From: a virus
Virus record (IMG/VR): IMGVR_UViG_3300033998_000217
Span: 1 to 21,645 of that record
Reading direction: 5' to 3' (one strand)
DNA: 21,645 nt
Below are positions 5,163 to 15,452 of this stretch, piece after piece (within the stretch, counting starts at the first letter, position 1; every line of letters starts with the position of its first letter). The translations under genes were made by a program, and so were the position numbers. The notes beneath the pieces were generated by a model. The model ran no database searches. It was not told the origin of the DNA and was given only the letters and a program-made list of their open reading frames with translations.

Positions 5163-6608
5163 ATGGAAATAGCTTCGCTCCAAATTGAGAATTTTCAAGC
5201 CCATAAATCCACAACAATTCGCCCTGGCCCGGGTGGCCAGTTAACCGTCATAACCGGCCCCTCGGACAGCGGCAAAACCGCCATTATCAGAGCCTTACGC
5301 TGGGTGTACTTCAACACACCGCAGGGTACGGACTTCATTCGGGTAGGGGCCAGGGAAGCCACCGTCGTCCTCACTTTGGTAGACGGTACCAGGATTATCC
5401 GCGACCGTTCCAGGGGCAGCAAAAATGCTTATGAGATTATCCTCCCTAACGGCGAAAAACAGTCCTTCGCAGGTTTTGGCGTCAATGTACCCCTGGAGAT
5501 CCAACAGCTTACCGGCGTTATGCCGGTCCAGATCGGCGACCTGGAGTTAAACCTTAACCTGGCCGAGCAGCTGGACGGCCCATTTCTGGGCAAGTCTATC
5601 TCCGCCGGGGCCAGGGCGAAAGTTTTAGGTAAGCTCGCCGGCACCGAAGAAGTAGACTATGCTGCAAAGCAACTGGCTACCGACCTGCACCGCCGCGGCC
5701 AGGACGAAAAGCGGCTGGCGGCAGAGATTGCCGGGCTGGAGGAAAAAATCCGGGAGTTCGACTACTTACCGAACATGAAGGCTAGGATTGAGGCAACCGA
5801 GGCCCTGGTAAGCCGGGCCAAGGCCACCGCGGAACTGCGGGATAAGCTGGCCGGATACCAGGAAAGATTGTACCAGTGTGAGGATGCTATCTCTCAGGCC
5901 AGAATGATTATCTGGCGCTGGCGGGGCCTGGAGGAAGCGGAAAACATCCTGTCCGGGGCTGAAATGACTGCGGCCAGGACGGATATCCTGTGCCGACTGG
6001 CATTCGGGCTGTCGGCAGCAGAAAACGGCATAGCTTCCAGCCAGGGTATCCTGCAAAAGTGGGCCGGTCTGGAAAAAGCAGAAGCGGCCATGGCCAAAGC
6101 CAGCGAGGCAGCCGCCAGAAAAGATGTTTTGCTGCGACTGGCAAGCCGGTGGGCCGTAGCAACAGAACGCATACTGGCCGACCAGAATGCCCTGCAACGC
6201 TGGTCCGGGCTAGACGAAGGCGCGGCGGCTGCTCTCCGGGCGGCGGAATTATATGAACGGTATACGCAACTTGGTAGTTTAAGGCAAAAGCTAATAACTG
6301 TTGCCAAAGAAATAGCCAGAGCGGTATTGGTCCTGGAGGGTTGGAAAAACATTGATGCAGCTACGTCTTGTATAGAAGCGGCGGAAACAGGGTTAACTTG
6401 CCGCAAGCAGATTATTTCCCTGGCCGCCAAGCTGGACTGTATCAATAAGGATATCGAAACAGCCCGACAGCAGGCCGTATTACATGAAAACCGTGTTGCC
6501 GAATTAGAAGGGGCTTATTTCGACGCCCTGCTGGCGGCAGGCCGCTGCCCGACCTGCGGCCAGGAAATCACCAACCAACAAATCGCTATTTTAAAGGAGG
6601 CTGTATAA
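5163..6608 (+). CDS. sbcC: Rad50/SbcC-like ATPase N-lobe with zinc hook (split subunit)
   Basis: A 481-residue protein equal to the front half of Rad50/SbcC. It has the N-terminal ATP-binding lobe (1-140) with Walker A GPSDSGKT (32-39) and a Q-loop region near 113-137, a long helical arm (about 160-455) and a zinc-hook motif CPTC (462-465), after which the protein ends within 16 residues. The signature motif, Walker B and H-loop are missing; they lie two genes downstream on a separate polypeptide. The arm is built of 47-residue tandem repeats. Start: ATG with AAGGAG 10 bases upstream; the open frame extends back to 4986 but that part overlaps the preceding gene. Together with the downstream parts it should form the ATP-driven clamp of an Mre11-Rad50-type DNA-end processing complex. 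Being a true split rather than a recent frameshift is supported by separate RBSs and intact termini. Confidence 0.9.
   Translation: MEIASLQIENFQAHKSTTIRPGPGGQLTVITGPSDSGKTAIIRALRWVYFNTPQGTDFIRVGAREATVVLTLVDGTRIIRDRSRGSKNAYEIILPNGEKQSFAGFGVNVPLEIQQLTGVMPVQIGDLELNLNLAEQLDGPFLGKSISAGARAKVLGKLAGTEEVDYAAKQLATDLHRRGQDEKRLAAEIAGLEEKIREFDYLPNMKARIEATEALVSRAKATAELRDKLAGYQERLYQCEDAISQARMIIWRWRGLEEAENILSGAEMTAARTDILCRLAFGLSAAENGIASSQGILQKWAGLEKAEAAMAKASEAAARKDVLLRLASRWAVATERILADQNALQRWSGLDEGAAAALRAAELYERYTQLGSLRQKLITVAKEIARAVLVLEGWKNIDAATSCIEAAETGLTCRKQIISLAAKLDCINKDIETARQQAVLHENRVAELEGAYFDALLAAGRCPTCGQEITNQQIAILKEAV
5703..6407 (+). repeat. Five tandem 47-codon repeats in the Rad50-like arm
   Basis: Residues 181-227, 228-274, 275-321, 322-368 and 369-415 align in register without gaps. 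Ile16 of the unit is in every copy, and Trp26 in copies 2-5 (Trp253, 300, 347, 394, exactly 47 apart). WxGL(E/D) marks copies 2-4, and copies 1 and 2 share the pattern SxAxxTAxxxD at the end. A sixth, partial unit starts at residue 416. The DNA is diverged, so the repeats are old. Confidence 0.9.
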
Positions 6609-6611
6609 ACA

Positions 6612-6845
6612 ATGACCGATATCGCCGCAAGGCTTAACAACCTTAAAGCCCAAATCGAAAAAGGGAAAGCCGAAAGAGCTAAAGCGGAGGCCAATCTGGA
6701 AACTTACACCAAACAGAAGGAAGAGATCATGGCAGAGCTGGCCGCGTTAGGCGTGGCCCCGGAAAAACTGGATGAGGAGATCGCCCGGCTGGAGGCTGAG
6801 ATTGAGAGTAACCTAGCCAAAGCGGAAGAACTGCTAAGGGGGTAG
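6612..6845 (+). CDS. 77-residue coiled-coil protein between the Rad50-like halves
   Basis: Almost entirely heptad-like helix: LNNLKAQIEKGKAERAKAEA, a short break at ALGVAPEKL (about 45-53) and EEIARLEAEIESNLAKAEEL. SD AAAGGAGG overlaps the end of the N-lobe gene; the stop is 5 bases before the C-lobe gene. There is no CxxC. It may supply part of the returning coil of the split Rad50 arm, or be an independent adaptor. Coiled coil is seen; partnership is inferred from its place. Confidence 0.8.
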   Translation: MTDIAARLNNLKAQIEKGKAERAKAEANLETYTKQKEEIMAELAALGVAPEKLDEEIARLEAEIESNLAKAEELLRG

Positions 6846-6850
6846 GCGGC

Positions 6851-7513
6851 ATGATTTCTGCCCCGGAAAACCGCCTCCCAAAAATTGAAACTGCCCTGGC
6901 GGCCCTGCGGTCCGACTATGACCGGGCCGCCGGGCAACTGGCCTACCTGGAACGCCACAAGGCTGAGAAGTTGGCCGAACTGGAGAAGGCCCAGGAAGAC
7001 ATACGGGTCTGGCAACTGGTGCAGGCCCTCTTTGCGAAGGTGTCCGAGTACGCCAGGGAGCAGTTGCGACAGAAAATTGAAGCGACCGTCACTGCTGCCC
7101 TCCAGGCCATATTCGAGGATGACGGTCTGGAATTTAAGGTGGTGCTGCGCCAAGAACGCGGCCAGGCCGCGGCCGACTGGGAGGTAGTCAGCAAATACGG
7201 GGAGTTCGTTGTCGCCGGCGATCCGGAAAACAGCCGGGGCGGCGGGGTAAGCGATGTGGTGAGCTTGGCGCTACGTCTGGCCCTACTGGAACTGGCCAGG
7301 CCGAAGCCGGGCGGTCCGGTACTGCTGGATGAGGTAGGGAAGCACGTGTCCGCTAATTATGCCCCAAACGTGGCGACCTTCTTGAAAGAATATGCCCGGA
7401 GGACGGGGCGGCAGGTAATTTTGATCACGCACCAGGCGGCGCTGGCCGAGGTAGCCGACGTAAGCTACCGCGTAAGCCAGCAGAACGGCATAAGCGAGGT
7501 GACCCGGGCATGA
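6851..7513 (+). CDS. sbcC: Rad50/SbcC-like ATPase C-lobe (split subunit)
   Basis: A 220-residue protein equal to the back half of Rad50/SbcC. Residues about 10-85 are helical coil. The C-lobe follows with the ABC signature region SRGGGVSDVVSLALRLAL (128-145, in place of LSGGE), Walker B VLLDE (157-161) and H-loop His194 in ILITHQ. There is no Walker A and no zinc hook, so it cannot be an ATPase alone and must pair with the N-lobe protein. Its coil is far shorter than the roughly 290-residue arm of the N-lobe. The stop overlaps the start of the Mre11/SbcD-like gene (ATGA), indicating coupled synthesis of complex partners. The family (SMC/Rad50 head) is clear. Confidence 0.88.
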   Translation: MISAPENRLPKIETALAALRSDYDRAAGQLAYLERHKAEKLAELEKAQEDIRVWQLVQALFAKVSEYAREQLRQKIEATVTAALQAIFEDDGLEFKVVLRQERGQAAADWEVVSKYGEFVVAGDPENSRGGGVSDVVSLALRLALLELARPKPGGPVLLDEVGKHVSANYAPNVATFLKEYARRTGRQVILITHQAALAEVADVSYRVSQQNGISEVTRA

Positions 7514-8496
7514 AGTTCATCGTAACAGGCGACTGGCATTTCCGGGGGACTAATCCCCGGGCGCGGATGGATGATTTCCAGGAAGCCCTGACCCATAAGA
7601 TTTATGAAGTTTTTAACCTGGCCCAGGAACACGAAGCTGAAGCCATTGTCGTCCCGGGCGACGTATTCGACAGTCCGGGTACTGCCCTGGGTACTATCGC
7701 TGACCTTGCTTATCTCTTGCAGCAGGCTCCATGCAAAATATTGGCGGTGCACGGCAACCACGACATATGGGGAAGCAACCCAGGTAGCAAGTACCGGACC
7801 CCTTTCGGGCTATTAGCTAAATTGGAGCTACTTTGGGACTTGGAACAGGAACCTTACGAAACAGGGTGGGTTTCCCCGGATTTGCTTATAACTGGCCACG
7901 GCTATAACACCGAAACTGATACCGAATTGGGCATGGCCCAGTTTAGCCCGGCAGCCCTGCCAGAGGGATTTGAAGGCGTATCCATTCGCGTAGTCCATTC
8001 CATGTTAATGCAGAAACCACCGGGCTTTGATATGCGCCATACCCTGATCCGGGACGTAAGAACGACGGCCAAAGTCGTCATATCAGGCCATGAGCACCTG
8101 GGCTTTGGTATAAAGCGCAGGGAGGACGGGGTTCTCTTTATCAACCCCGGCGCCTTATGCCGGCTGAGCGCCAACCCGGCTGAAATGGAGCGCCAGGTCC
8201 AGGTGGCGGTCCTGGAAGTAGAAAACGGAGAAGCTGAAGCCTTCCTGGTACCTTTGAAATCCGCCCGGCCGGGTTATGAGGTCCTTTCCCGTGACCATCT
8301 GGAACAAGAAGCTGAGCGGGAAGAACGGATTAACCGCTTCCTGGGCCTCCTGGCCGCCGAAGGGGAGGCGAAGTTCCTGGAGATCCAGGAGATAGTTGAC
8401 GACATAGCCAGGCGGGAGGAACTGCCGGCAGCAGTAGTCAAGGAGGCCCTGGATCGCATTGGCCGGGCGAGGGAAGCTCTGAGCAAGGCGGGATGA
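7510..8496 (+). CDS. sbcD: SbcD/Mre11-like DNA nuclease
   Basis: A 328-residue calcineurin-like phosphoesterase with the Mre11/SbcD metal-binding motifs: GDWH (Asp8, His10), GDVFD (Asp51), GNHD (Asn83, His84, Asp85), His163 in VVHS and GHEH (His194, His196). It should bind two Mn ions and cut DNA ends as the nuclease partner of the split Rad50 ATPase just upstream, with which it overlaps by four bases. After the catalytic core (to about 215) come a strand-rich segment and a helical C-terminus (about 260-328), which may be the region that contacts the Rad50 coil. All catalytic residues are intact. Length is a little shorter than E. coli SbcD (about 400). Confidence 0.95.
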   Translation: MKFIVTGDWHFRGTNPRARMDDFQEALTHKIYEVFNLAQEHEAEAIVVPGDVFDSPGTALGTIADLAYLLQQAPCKILAVHGNHDIWGSNPGSKYRTPFGLLAKLELLWDLEQEPYETGWVSPDLLITGHGYNTETDTELGMAQFSPAALPEGFEGVSIRVVHSMLMQKPPGFDMRHTLIRDVRTTAKVVISGHEHLGFGIKRREDGVLFINPGALCRLSANPAEMERQVQVAVLEVENGEAEAFLVPLKSARPGYEVLSRDHLEQEAEREERINRFLGLLAAEGEAKFLEIQEIVDDIARREELPAAVVKEALDRIGRAREALSKAG

Positions 8497-9434
8497 GGAT
8501 GAGCGTAGCAGCTATAAACCAACAACAAGAAAAGCTAACCGCAAGAATTATTTATGTCCGGTTCCACAACCCGGCCAATGGCTACTGCGTTTTGAGTTTG
8601 GATGCGAGAACGATGGAGACTATTACCGCCGTGGGCTACATGCCATCCATCCGCATTGACGAAGAGTATGAGTTCACCGGAAGTTGGGTAATTCACCCCA
8701 AATTCGGCCGGCAGTTCCAATTCACCGAATACCAGATGATCATGCCTTCTTCTAAAGAGGGGCTAATCTCTTACCTGTGCAGCGTGGCTACCGGCATCGG
8801 CCCGGTCAAGGCCGGGCGCATCGTGGACACCCTGGGGGATGACTGCCTGGACAAAATCCAGGCCGACCCCGGCATCCTTCTCACCGTTCCCGGGATTAAG
8901 CCGGAACAGGCAGAAGAAATCTACAAAGCTCTAGCCGAAAACCGTGTCCTGGCTGAATTAACAGCGCTTATCTGCGGGCAGGGGATTACTCCAAGATTGG
9001 CCACAAAAATATACCAACATTACGGCGTTGACAGCCTGAAGGTAGTCAAGGAGAACCCCTACGTCCTGGCGGACGAGATGTTTGGCGTGGGCTTTAAGAC
9101 AGCCGACAAAATTGCCCGGGCAGTGGGGATCCCGGAAGATAGTCCCTACCGGCTTGAAGCGGCGGTAAAGTGGCTGCTTAACGAAGCGGGGAACGACGGC
9201 CACTGCTACCTGCGGCCCTCTGAGATTTTAGCCAGGCTGCCGGAAGCCCTGGGGACGAGGGTAGAGGTAACCCCGGTGGCGGAAGCGGTGAAGGCGCTGC
9301 AGGAAAAGGGGCAGGTTGTACGGGAGGGCGACTGCATTTACTATGCCGGCATGTACGAGGCGGAAAAGGAGTTTGCCGGCAGGGTGAGGGGGATGGCGGA
9401 AAGACTATCTGGAAGCGAGGCGGCGCAGGAATGA
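8493..9434 (+). CDS. recD2: RecD2 helicase, N-terminal half (split gene)
   Basis: A 313-residue protein equal to the DNA-binding front of RecD2. It has an OB-like region about 15-82 with the typical VGYMPS...GSWVIHPKFGRQFQF pattern, a helix-hairpin-helix block about 97-145 (GIGPVKAGRIVDTLG, VPGIKPEQAEEI), a second one about 160-212 (GVGFKTADKIARAVGI) and a winged-helix-like segment to about 300 ending CIYYAGMYEAEKEFAGRV. The protein stops where RecD2 normally enters helicase motif I; the motor domain is encoded two genes later. The start ATG overlaps the nuclease stop, and its stop overlaps the LysM-3D start (ATGA). It presumably binds DNA and works with the separate motor. Confidence 0.92.
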   Translation: MRMSVAAINQQQEKLTARIIYVRFHNPANGYCVLSLDARTMETITAVGYMPSIRIDEEYEFTGSWVIHPKFGRQFQFTEYQMIMPSSKEGLISYLCSVATGIGPVKAGRIVDTLGDDCLDKIQADPGILLTVPGIKPEQAEEIYKALAENRVLAELTALICGQGITPRLATKIYQHYGVDSLKVVKENPYVLADEMFGVGFKTADKIARAVGIPEDSPYRLEAAVKWLLNEAGNDGHCYLRPSEILARLPEALGTRVEVTPVAEAVKALQEKGQVVREGDCIYYAGMYEAEKEFAGRVRGMAERLSGSEAAQE

Positions 9435-10744: not shown

Positions 10745-12001
10745 GTGGACTTTTCCGGATTGATTGCAGCCACTGAAAGCAACCTGGGTATTACCTACGC
10801 CGATGCTCAGCGCGAGGCTATATTAAAGGCCTTAACCTACAATCTCAGCATTGTTACAGGTGGTCCCGGTACGGGTAAAACAACCGTTACCCGGGGGATC
10901 CTGGCCGCCTACAAGCAGCTTCACCCGGATCATTATATTTACCTTGCCAGCCCTACGGGCCGGGCCGCTAAAAGGATGGCGGAGGTGACGGGGCACGATG
11001 CGAAAACCATTCACCGTCTGTTGCACTATCAACCCCAACACAATTGCTTCGAGTTCAATGAGCAGAACCCCCTGCCTGGGCCGGGGCTGCTGATATGCGA
11101 TGAGTTTTCAATGTGCGATATCCTGCTGGCCCGGGACTTGTTCCGGGCCATCCCCAGCAACCTGAAAGTAGTGTTAATCGGCGACGTGGATCAGCTCCCC
11201 TCTGTGGGACCGGGAGCCGTTTTAAGAGATCTTATCGCGTCGAGCGTAGTACCTACCACCCGGTTATCCCTCGTCTACCGCCAGGGCGAGGGCTCCGGGA
11301 TCCCTATTCTGGCTGATGCGGTCCGCCAGGGCAGACTACCGCCCGATTGGATGCGTCTCCCGGATGTGGAGGTTATCCCTGTGGATGACCGGCAGCTAAT
11401 ACCCAACCTCGTAAAGGAAAAAGCCCTGGAAGCCGTAAAAAGCTACGGCCTCATGGGTGTCCTTGTGCTGGCGCCGATGCGCCGGGGGATTGACGGGGTA
11501 AGCAATTTAAATCAGGTGGTCCGGGAAGCATTGAACCCGGACGGGGAAGATGTCCCAGAAATCCAGCTGAGCAGCGGCAAATTCAGGGTAAACGATAAGG
11601 TTATGGTAATCAAAAACAATTACACCTTGGGGGTCTTTAACGGCGACGTGGGGCAGGTAACAGAAATACAAACCGAAAGCCCCAGGGGAGTCTATGTGGA
11701 TATCCAGGGTAACGATGATGAAGTCTTTTTCAACGATGAGGACGATACCGCCGGCCTTATTACCCTGGCCTACGCCAGCACAGTCCACAAGGCCCAGGGG
11801 AGTGAAGCGCCGCAGGTCATTATGGTGCTGACCCGGGGGCACTACATGATGCTCCAGCGCAACCTCTTTTATACCGGCATCACCCGGGCCAAGAAGAAGC
11901 TGACCATTATCTGCCAACCGGACGCCGTGGAGATGGCCGTAAGGAACAACAAGATCGCCGCCAGGAACAGCCGGCTAAAAGAGCTGCTGGCTGCGGGTTA
12001 A
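10745..12001 (+). CDS. recD2: RecD2 helicase, motor half (split gene)
   Basis: A 418-residue SF1B helicase motor: motif I GGPGTGKTT (39-47, Lys45), Ia ASPTGRAAKRM, II LLICDEFSM, III LIGDVDQLPSVGPGAVL, IV LSLVYRQ, V YASTVHKAQGSEAPQVI and VI LFYTGITRAKKKL. It begins at ITYADAQREAI, the Q-motif-like entry that follows the N-terminal domain in intact RecD2. GTG start, SD AGGGGG about 9 bases upstream. With the N-terminal part (313 residues) the total is 731, close to a normal single-chain RecD2, so nothing is lost and the division is at the domain border. It should unwind DNA 5' to 3' with its separated partner. Confidence 0.95.
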   Translation: MDFSGLIAATESNLGITYADAQREAILKALTYNLSIVTGGPGTGKTTVTRGILAAYKQLHPDHYIYLASPTGRAAKRMAEVTGHDAKTIHRLLHYQPQHNCFEFNEQNPLPGPGLLICDEFSMCDILLARDLFRAIPSNLKVVLIGDVDQLPSVGPGAVLRDLIASSVVPTTRLSLVYRQGEGSGIPILADAVRQGRLPPDWMRLPDVEVIPVDDRQLIPNLVKEKALEAVKSYGLMGVLVLAPMRRGIDGVSNLNQVVREALNPDGEDVPEIQLSSGKFRVNDKVMVIKNNYTLGVFNGDVGQVTEIQTESPRGVYVDIQGNDDEVFFNDEDDTAGLITLAYASTVHKAQGSEAPQVIMVLTRGHYMMLQRNLFYTGITRAKKKLTIICQPDAVEMAVRNNKIAARNSRLKELLAAG

Positions 12002-15032: not shown

Positions 15033-15452
15033 GGCTATAGTATATATGAAAGCATATGGAAGAAGATGTAATTAAATCATCAAAATTACTACCCAAAATA
15101 CCCAAAAAAGCCCTTAAAATGACCGAACTAGTGTTACCAGTGTTACCTTACTGTTACCAATTTCGAGGTCTTGAGTCGGCTGTATATATAGGCATTTTTT
15201 TAGGGGTTTGGTAACACTGGTAACGGTGGTAACACTAAAATTTCATTTTTGATTTGGAAGAGGCGCTTTAGCGTAATAAAATTAGCGAAAAAAAATATCT
15301 CCCATCCAAAAAAATAAAAAGTACTGTTACCAGTGTTACCAACGTTACCAGCCAGGATTTTCAAGGTTTCCCGGGTTTTTAAAAGCGTTACCATAGTGTA
15401 ACCAGACGTAACCACTCGGAATTGACTTACCAGAAAGGAGGTCCCTGCATCT
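15033..15452. other. Gene-free region, candidate replication origin
   Basis: The only long non-coding stretch in the window. It holds four clusters of three GTTACC-type heptads, flanking an AT-rich core (about 15234-15325) that contains two TTAGCG copies (15268-15273, 15282-15287). A 52-codon frame (15056-15214) crosses it but has no SD and is partly made of the repeats. Position next to a primase-polymerase, repeat density and the AT-rich core suggest a theta-type origin; a regulatory region is the alternative. Confidence 0.6.
15133..15413. repeat. Twelve GTTACC-type iterons in four triplets
   Basis: Triplet 1 at 15133, 15142 and 15153 (GTTACC, plus strand). Triplet 2 at 15210, 15219 and 15228 (GGTAAC, i.e. 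inverted). Triplet 3 at 15326, 15335 and 15344 (plus). Triplet 4 at 15387 (GTTACC), 15398 and 15408 (both GTAACC, one mismatch). Steps within triplets are 9-11 bases, about one helical turn, so a protein could bind along one face. Triplet 2 is opposite in orientation to the other three. Confidence 0.92.

Follow-up and report, generated by a model that had tools for sequence, protein, structure and literature searches.

The DNA analyzed here (hereafter the window, i.e., the entire 21,645 nt of virus record IMGVR_UViG_3300033998_000217) probably encodes a complex of the SbcCD (Mre11-Rad50) type with SbcC split into three chains, in which the N-terminal arm of the ATPase (N-arm) is a modular spacer made of 47-residue units that are gained and lost whole. 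Comparison of homologs establishes, at the level of primary structure, that the N-arm is a chain of such units, that relatives differ by whole units, and that the length of the C-terminal half of the ATPase (C-half) varies independently. Each unit is predicted by structure modeling to comprise one helix of ~44 residues followed by a short break, bendable or straight.

Genes of the split SbcC in the window

The relevant features are the following.

5163..6608, + strand: N-half of a split SbcC/Rad50-like ATPase, 481 aa, with the Walker A head, the repeat arm and a CxxC near the end
5256..5279, + strand: Walker A motif GPSDSGKT, residues 32-39 (sequence; PF13476 above the cut-off)
6546..6557, + strand: CxxC (CPTC, residues 462-465), putative half of a zinc hook, invariant in 44 aligned rows
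6612..6845, + strand: 77-aa helix-loop-helix protein, candidate third piece of the split SbcC (phrog_18563; in 142 of 177 non-redundant loci)
6851..7513, + strand: C-half, 220 aa, with a short coil, a signature-like motif and Walker B (LLDE) (phrog_15167)
7510..8496, + strand: SbcD/Mre11-like metallophosphoesterase, 328 aa (PF12850 and PF00149 above cut-offs; phrog_100)

The N-half contains an ABC-type N-terminal head with the Walker A motif (PF13476, 46.2 bits against a cut-off of 27). A fold search started with the model of this protein identifies heads of Rad50 and SMC proteins with Z of about 12-13, e.g., Rad50 9a9j_A with Z 12.7 and rmsd 5.9 over 178 aligned residues; the matches cover the head, and those that span the arm have a large rmsd. 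For a joined model of the N-half and the 77-aa protein, the fold matches over positions 1-560 have rmsd of 13-67 and were set aside. The CxxC at the arm tip, a putative hook recognized at the motif level, lies in a region with a weak match to Rad50 hook structures (phmmer, E about 0.05), and the protein ends 16 residues past the second Cys. The signature and Walker B half is encoded in the separate 220-aa ORF, which matches SMC_N with E 8e-8 (32.4 bits, below the cut-off of 40) and the SbcC-like phrog_77 with E 5e-8. The SbcC subfamily profile TIGR00618 gives no match to either half up to E 0.01. In the PHROG collection, the N-half, the 77-aa protein and the C-half match families 16465 (exonuclease, E 8e-75), 18563 (E 6e-10) and 15167 (ATPase, E 3e-57), respectively. 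The closest N-half found, 87% identical, is encoded in a contig of Moorella stamsii. In the window, the metallophosphoesterase gene adjoins the split SbcC. The N-half (Walker A head, long arm and terminal CxxC), the ~77-aa protein and the C-half (short coil, signature and Walker B) together would make up a split SbcC.

A RecD2-like helicase is also split in the window (8493-9434 and 10745-12001), with an OB/HHH part and a helicase part that correspond to positions 7-306 and 320-739 of PHROG 4412; two other ORFs lie between the parts, which are adjacent in locus L006. The stretch 15090-15351, upstream of 15453, lacks a long + strand ORF and contains several short 9-base tandem repeats that share GTTACC or its complement; perhaps, this is an origin or operator region.

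The 47-residue repeat of the N-arm

The 47-residue repeat is real. An earlier note on this DNA had described five ungapped units of 47 residues between residues 181 and 415 of the N-half, with Trp at 253, 300, 347 and 394 and a constant Ile at unit position 16. All these observations are borne out: the units start at residues 181, 228, 275, 322 and 369 with no gap, the four Trp residues are found as described, and the Ile is present in all five units. It also recurs at residue 431, within a sixth, partly conserved unit that reaches the CxxC at 462. The repeats had been called exact, which holds for the spacing but not for the letters, as the units share pairwise 6 to 17 of 47 residues.

5703..5843, + strand: arm unit 1, residues 181-227
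5844..5984, + strand: arm unit 2, residues 228-274, predicted break at 253-255
5985..6125, + strand: arm unit 3, residues 275-321, predicted break at 300-305 in AF2 model 1 only
6126..6266, + strand: arm unit 4, residues 322-368, predicted break at 347-349 in AF2 model 1 only
6267..6407, + strand: arm unit 5, residues 369-415, predicted break at 394-396 in AF2 model 1 only
6408..6548, + strand: sixth, hook-proximal unit, residues 416-462, with the unit pattern kept in the first half only

When residues 160-460 are compared with themselves, the best ungapped local score is obtained at lag 47 (196), followed by lag 94 (85) and lag 141 (57). The maxima over lags 20-99 do not exceed 51 in 300 plain shuffles and 48 in 300 shuffles that keep the heptad classes, so that the self-comparison, which had been proposed as a check, gives a strong signal at lag 47 beyond all shuffles, and chance periodicity is ruled out. 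The contrast with ordinary coiled coils drawn in the note also stands: the two arms of E. coli SbcC score 11 and 14 at lag 47, below their mean shuffle maxima of 42 and 49, and the full-length SbcC-like protein of an Anaerosphaera genome yields nothing at this lag. No DNA-level tandem repeat was found in the arm region, i.e., the repetition is confined to the protein level, which indicates that the repeats are old.

Length ladders and changes in unit number

The homologs were collected from 302 sequences (viral and genome contigs and phage records, the window included), each with an ORF that contains the N-head. Among these, 279 N-halves are complete with the CxxC, and 177 remain after near-copies were dropped at 70%. 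The best lag among 20-99 is 47 in 105 of the 177 arms and 94 in 16 more. The N-arms span 129 to 343 residues, and the head-to-CxxC distances form two ladders with a step of 47, namely, 142/189/236 and 245/292/339, offset by 9. A good head match was obtained for 142 arms; 110 of these fall on a rung to within 1 residue, compared to about 12 expected under the assumption of uniform lengths over 135-345, and the other 32 deviate by more than that. The ladder was chosen after the first 99 arms had been viewed, so that the figure of 110 is descriptive. The arms of L057 (151) and L082 (195, rung 198) represent lower rungs of the long ladder.

The comparison of unit number among homologs, also proposed in the note, shows that arms differ by whole units. 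Among the pairs with head identity of at least 45% and an arm-length difference of 15 residues or more (2,462 in total; the pairs overlap, include near-copies and are not independent), this difference is within 2 of a multiple of 47 in 2,224. In L011 and L019, for example, where the heads are 83% identical, the arms differ by a single clean gap of 94 residues that runs from one break motif to a later break motif; such a break-to-break gap between close relatives indicates that length evolves by unit copying. A quick tree of 142 heads, of modest support (20 of 139 inner branches starred), requires unit number or ladder to have changed at least 36 times. The ladders, the clean gaps and these changes all support the proposal of the note that the arm changes its length via unit copying.

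The repeat might have no function of its own, as a leftover of ancient duplications within a permissive spacer, with the steps reflecting nothing but easy indels. The wide divergence of the unit letters and the variation of unit number among close relatives are compatible with such an origin. Within a rung, however, arm length is constant to the residue while identity falls to about 25%, and the breaks and the hydrophobic stripe (see below) are kept in all units, which makes a functionless relic quite unlikely.

Predicted structure of the unit

In the 28 arms of exactly the window's length, hydrophobic residues occupy unit positions 2, 5, 9, 12, 16, 19, 22/23, 26, 29, 32, 35/36, 39, 43 and 46, forming one narrow stripe with two 3-3-3 spacings per unit. 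Gly and Pro cluster at u27, u28 and u30, and at u30 Asp and Glu lead, as at a helix start. For the pooled profile, the short family was entered with an assumed phase shift of 9; a phase scan scored shift 2 slightly above 9, which makes the contribution of the short family to the pooled profile and to the couplings less certain. A single hook-based phase for both the short and the long families was rejected because it blurred the profile.

AF2 model 1 (44 homologs; pLDDT 77, pTM 0.35) contains helices at 162-197, 202-252, 256-299, 306-346, 350-393 and 397-459, with breaks at 198-201, 253-255, 300-305, 347-349 and 394-396. These coincide with F-D-Y-L and with every W-x-G-L or variant thereof, which gives one helix of ~44 residues per unit. 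In AF2 model 2, for which the 77-aa protein was joined through the stop codon (38 rows; pTM 0.34), the breaks near 199 and 254 are kept and three of the five are lost, so that a single helix of 204 residues covers 256-459; the 77-aa protein is modeled with helices of 42 and 27 residues. The W-x-G-L breaks may be able to adopt both bent and straight forms, and the disagreement between the models may equally reflect poor prediction. The helix break that the note placed at W-x-G-L is upheld by the Gly, Pro and helix-start residues at u27-u30 and by the five breaks of model 1. Structure prediction as a check on the note gives a divided outcome: the breaks appear in model 1, and the single helix over 256-459 in model 2 is, in part, the outcome that the note had named as refuting.

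The note went further and took each unit to be a helical hairpin. An arm built as a stack of hairpins would reverse its chain at the W-x-G-L breaks, yielding a folded antiparallel bundle in which added units do not move the hook outward. Besides the residues at the breaks and the breaks of model 1, this arrangement would suit the 10 cases among 56 long arms where lag 94 scores higher than lag 47, as well as an N-arm that has no equally long C-arm partner. Two helices per unit, as in repeats of the TPR/HEAT type, are nevertheless not seen in the models, which have one helix per unit or fewer breaks (at low pTM), and model 2 runs straight for 204 residues; with pTM of 0.35 and 0.34, the models are too weak to decide on a folded arm. 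A Pfam scan matched no helical-hairpin family of this type, and mean-field couplings over 382 two-helix windows display helical spacing without an antidiagonal at the break (the analysis has low power; the highest antidiagonal, z 2.9, is away from the break). The narrow stripe fits a single partner. Furthermore, unit number changes by one, and with a reversal at every break, each added unit would flip the hook to the other end of the bundle. The hairpin claim is not supported, given the helix of ~44 residues per unit in model 1, and a stack of hairpins appears unlikely.

Three chains and their partners

No ORF in the 302 loci matches both the N-head and the C-half models, i.e., the one-chain layout (head, N-coil, hook, C-coil, head) is not found in the split family. 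In 176 of the 177 non-redundant loci, the stop of the N-half ORF comes 5-28 residues past the first Cys of the last CxxC. The loci with at least 3.5 kb of downstream sequence contain the C-half in 126 cases of 131 and the small protein in 121 of 131. The C-half has a median length of 214 aa that hardly depends on the N-arm length (slope 0.06, r 0.22, n=137) and is near constant across N-arms of 129 to 343 residues; judged by length only, antiparallel coils of matching length are not seen, and an ordinary antiparallel arm is therefore unlikely.

The small protein also stays near 77 aa over the entire range of N-arm lengths. It comes in two types, with the loop at about 32 (61 proteins) or 37 (60 proteins), and 18 proteins are untypable. 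All 61 proteins of the loop-32 type go with arms of 236 or less, and all 60 of the loop-37 type with arms that deviate from a long-ladder rung by 7 residues or less, including L057 and L082, so that the type tracks the ladder rather than the arm length. The two types differ by 5 residues and the ladders are offset by 9, which implies that the lengths of the small protein and the N-arm do not simply match; co-change of equal length (9 expected, 5 found) was accordingly rejected as proof of pairing.

The single hydrophobic stripe of the middle units calls for one partner helix. In the shortest arms, the C-half and the small protein could together cover most of the N-arm, whereas in the window one copy of each chain would leave about half of the N-arm without a partner. 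Additional copies of the small protein could serve as partners for the middle units, as could a second N-arm or a back-folded part of the same arm.

The first of these candidates corresponds to an arm that serves as a docking rail, with one copy of the 77-aa protein bound by each 47-residue unit, so that a single gene would supply partners for arms of any length. The presence of the small protein in nearly all loci with sufficient downstream room, its constant length along with N-arms of widely different lengths, and the closeness of its predicted 42-residue first helix to the ~44-residue helix of the unit are all in line with this arrangement. Exonuclease VII (XseA/XseB) offers a precedent, a DNA nuclease in which a long helical arm goes together with a helical small subunit of ~80 aa, such that one small-subunit gene supplies partner helices along the arm. 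A Pfam scan up to E 0.1 detects no kinship between the small protein and XseB. The association of the small-protein type with the ladder on the hook side fits one copy near the hook just as well, and we know of no Rad50/SMC-family arm that is built from multiple copies of a third protein. A rail is an unlikely design; if real, it would make an adjustable arm by combining a single repetitive rail with multiple copies of the same partner chain, with selection setting the reach of the nuclease through addition and removal of rail units.

Proposed mechanism and relation to known systems

Under the modular-spacer reading, the N-arm would separate the nuclease head from the zinc hook and set the distance between them. 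The coil of the C-half would pair with the head-proximal end of the N-arm and the 77-aa protein with the hook-proximal end, the two occupying the places of the descending C-arm of an unsplit SbcC. Recombination between like-phased breaks could add or remove units, and each such change would alter the reach by a fixed step, with the head, the hook and the partner interfaces staying in register. By kinship with SbcCD, ATP would drive the head, the CxxC would join two arms through zinc, and DNA ends or hairpins would be bound and cut; the probable role of the complex in phage replication and recombination is, as for SbcCD, the processing of DNA ends or hairpins.

The shared features of this system and SbcCD (Mre11-Rad50) include the ABC head with Walker A and B, the long helical arm, the CxxC at its tip and the adjacent calcineurin-like nuclease. 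In contrast to SbcCD, the ATPase here is divided into three chains (N-half, 77-aa protein and C-half), the N-arm consists of 47-residue units, and the C-half is short and of near-constant length. The same three proteins are represented in PHROG 16465, 18563 (function unassigned) and 15167, but are filed there as separate families, and the listing states neither the repeat nor the split. The same set of three families is carried by Bacillus phage vB_BboS-125. Searches of open-licence literature on split SMC/Rad50/SbcC, phage SbcC, the hook, arm periodicity, ExoVII and vB_BboS-125 revealed no account of the repeat or the split, and those on 47-residue repeats yielded unrelated proteins.

Arm length has been analyzed for B. 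subtilis Smc, which is functional only if its arm length falls within regimes that recur every 91 residues; among SMC proteins in nature, arm length changes in steps of about 100 residues (Burmann et al. 2017, PMC5344682). The same study calls the role of periodic elements in Rad50 unclear, only a handful of truncations having been tested (PMC5344682). The split-SbcC arms resemble these tuned SMC arms in that only certain lengths, spaced by a long period, occur. Unlike the split form, Smc is one chain in which two coils change together, and the passages of the Smc study on arm length mention no 47-residue sequence repeat (PMC5344682).

The N-arm could, alternatively, be an ordinary continuous coiled coil in which selection keeps only those lengths at which head and hook retain their relative angle, as proposed for Smc. 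On this view, 47 residues correspond to 13 helical turns and about half a superhelical period; two units make 94 residues, to be set beside the Smc periods above; and in model 2 the helix is uninterrupted over 256-459. Selection on length, however, leaves the repetition of the sequence itself at 47 to be explained, as well as the clean unit gaps between close relatives; together, these mean that unit copying alone gives the length steps. The two 3-3-3 spacings per unit are unlike a plain heptad coil, and the C-half has no matching arm. Angular register as the sole cause of the ladders thus seems improbable, although selection on the head-hook angle may act in addition to unit copying.

The split-SbcC family bears on the open question of whether the arms of Rad50/SMC proteins serve just as spacers or are machines tuned in length. 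Its natural arms occupy several rungs of both ladders, and its C-half is not subject to the length constraint, so that changes by whole units and by parts of units become directly comparable; this opens a direct test of the role of arm length in Rad50-like machines.

Variants of the locus and genomic distribution

Several loci deviate from the layout of the window. In L089, L094, L103 and L114, the N-half carries an SbcD-like metallophosphoesterase as an N-terminal fusion, i.e., the same parts come in another order. The N-half encoded at L273:3065-5377 has a long N-terminal extension and 141 residues after the CxxC instead of 5-28; when this tail was considered as a natural fusion of the small protein to the N-half, it scored 9 bits with the small-protein model, no better than the coiled-coil background of other N-halves. 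In Bacillus phage vB_BboS-125, an ORF with a weak AP2-domain match (L003:5407-5979) lies between the N-half and the small gene, and several other loci have longer gaps at this place, perhaps occupied by homing endonucleases.

Among ten genomes with the split form, a full-length SbcC-like frame (1,049 aa) was found in one and none was found in the other nine. In Peptoniphilus vaginalis (L063:2942-7748), the split SbcC set is located between recA and a Trp-repressor-like gene, among housekeeping neighbors, which indicates that the split form is not only viral; SbcC is thus kept as three genes both in phages and beside recA on the Peptoniphilus chromosome.
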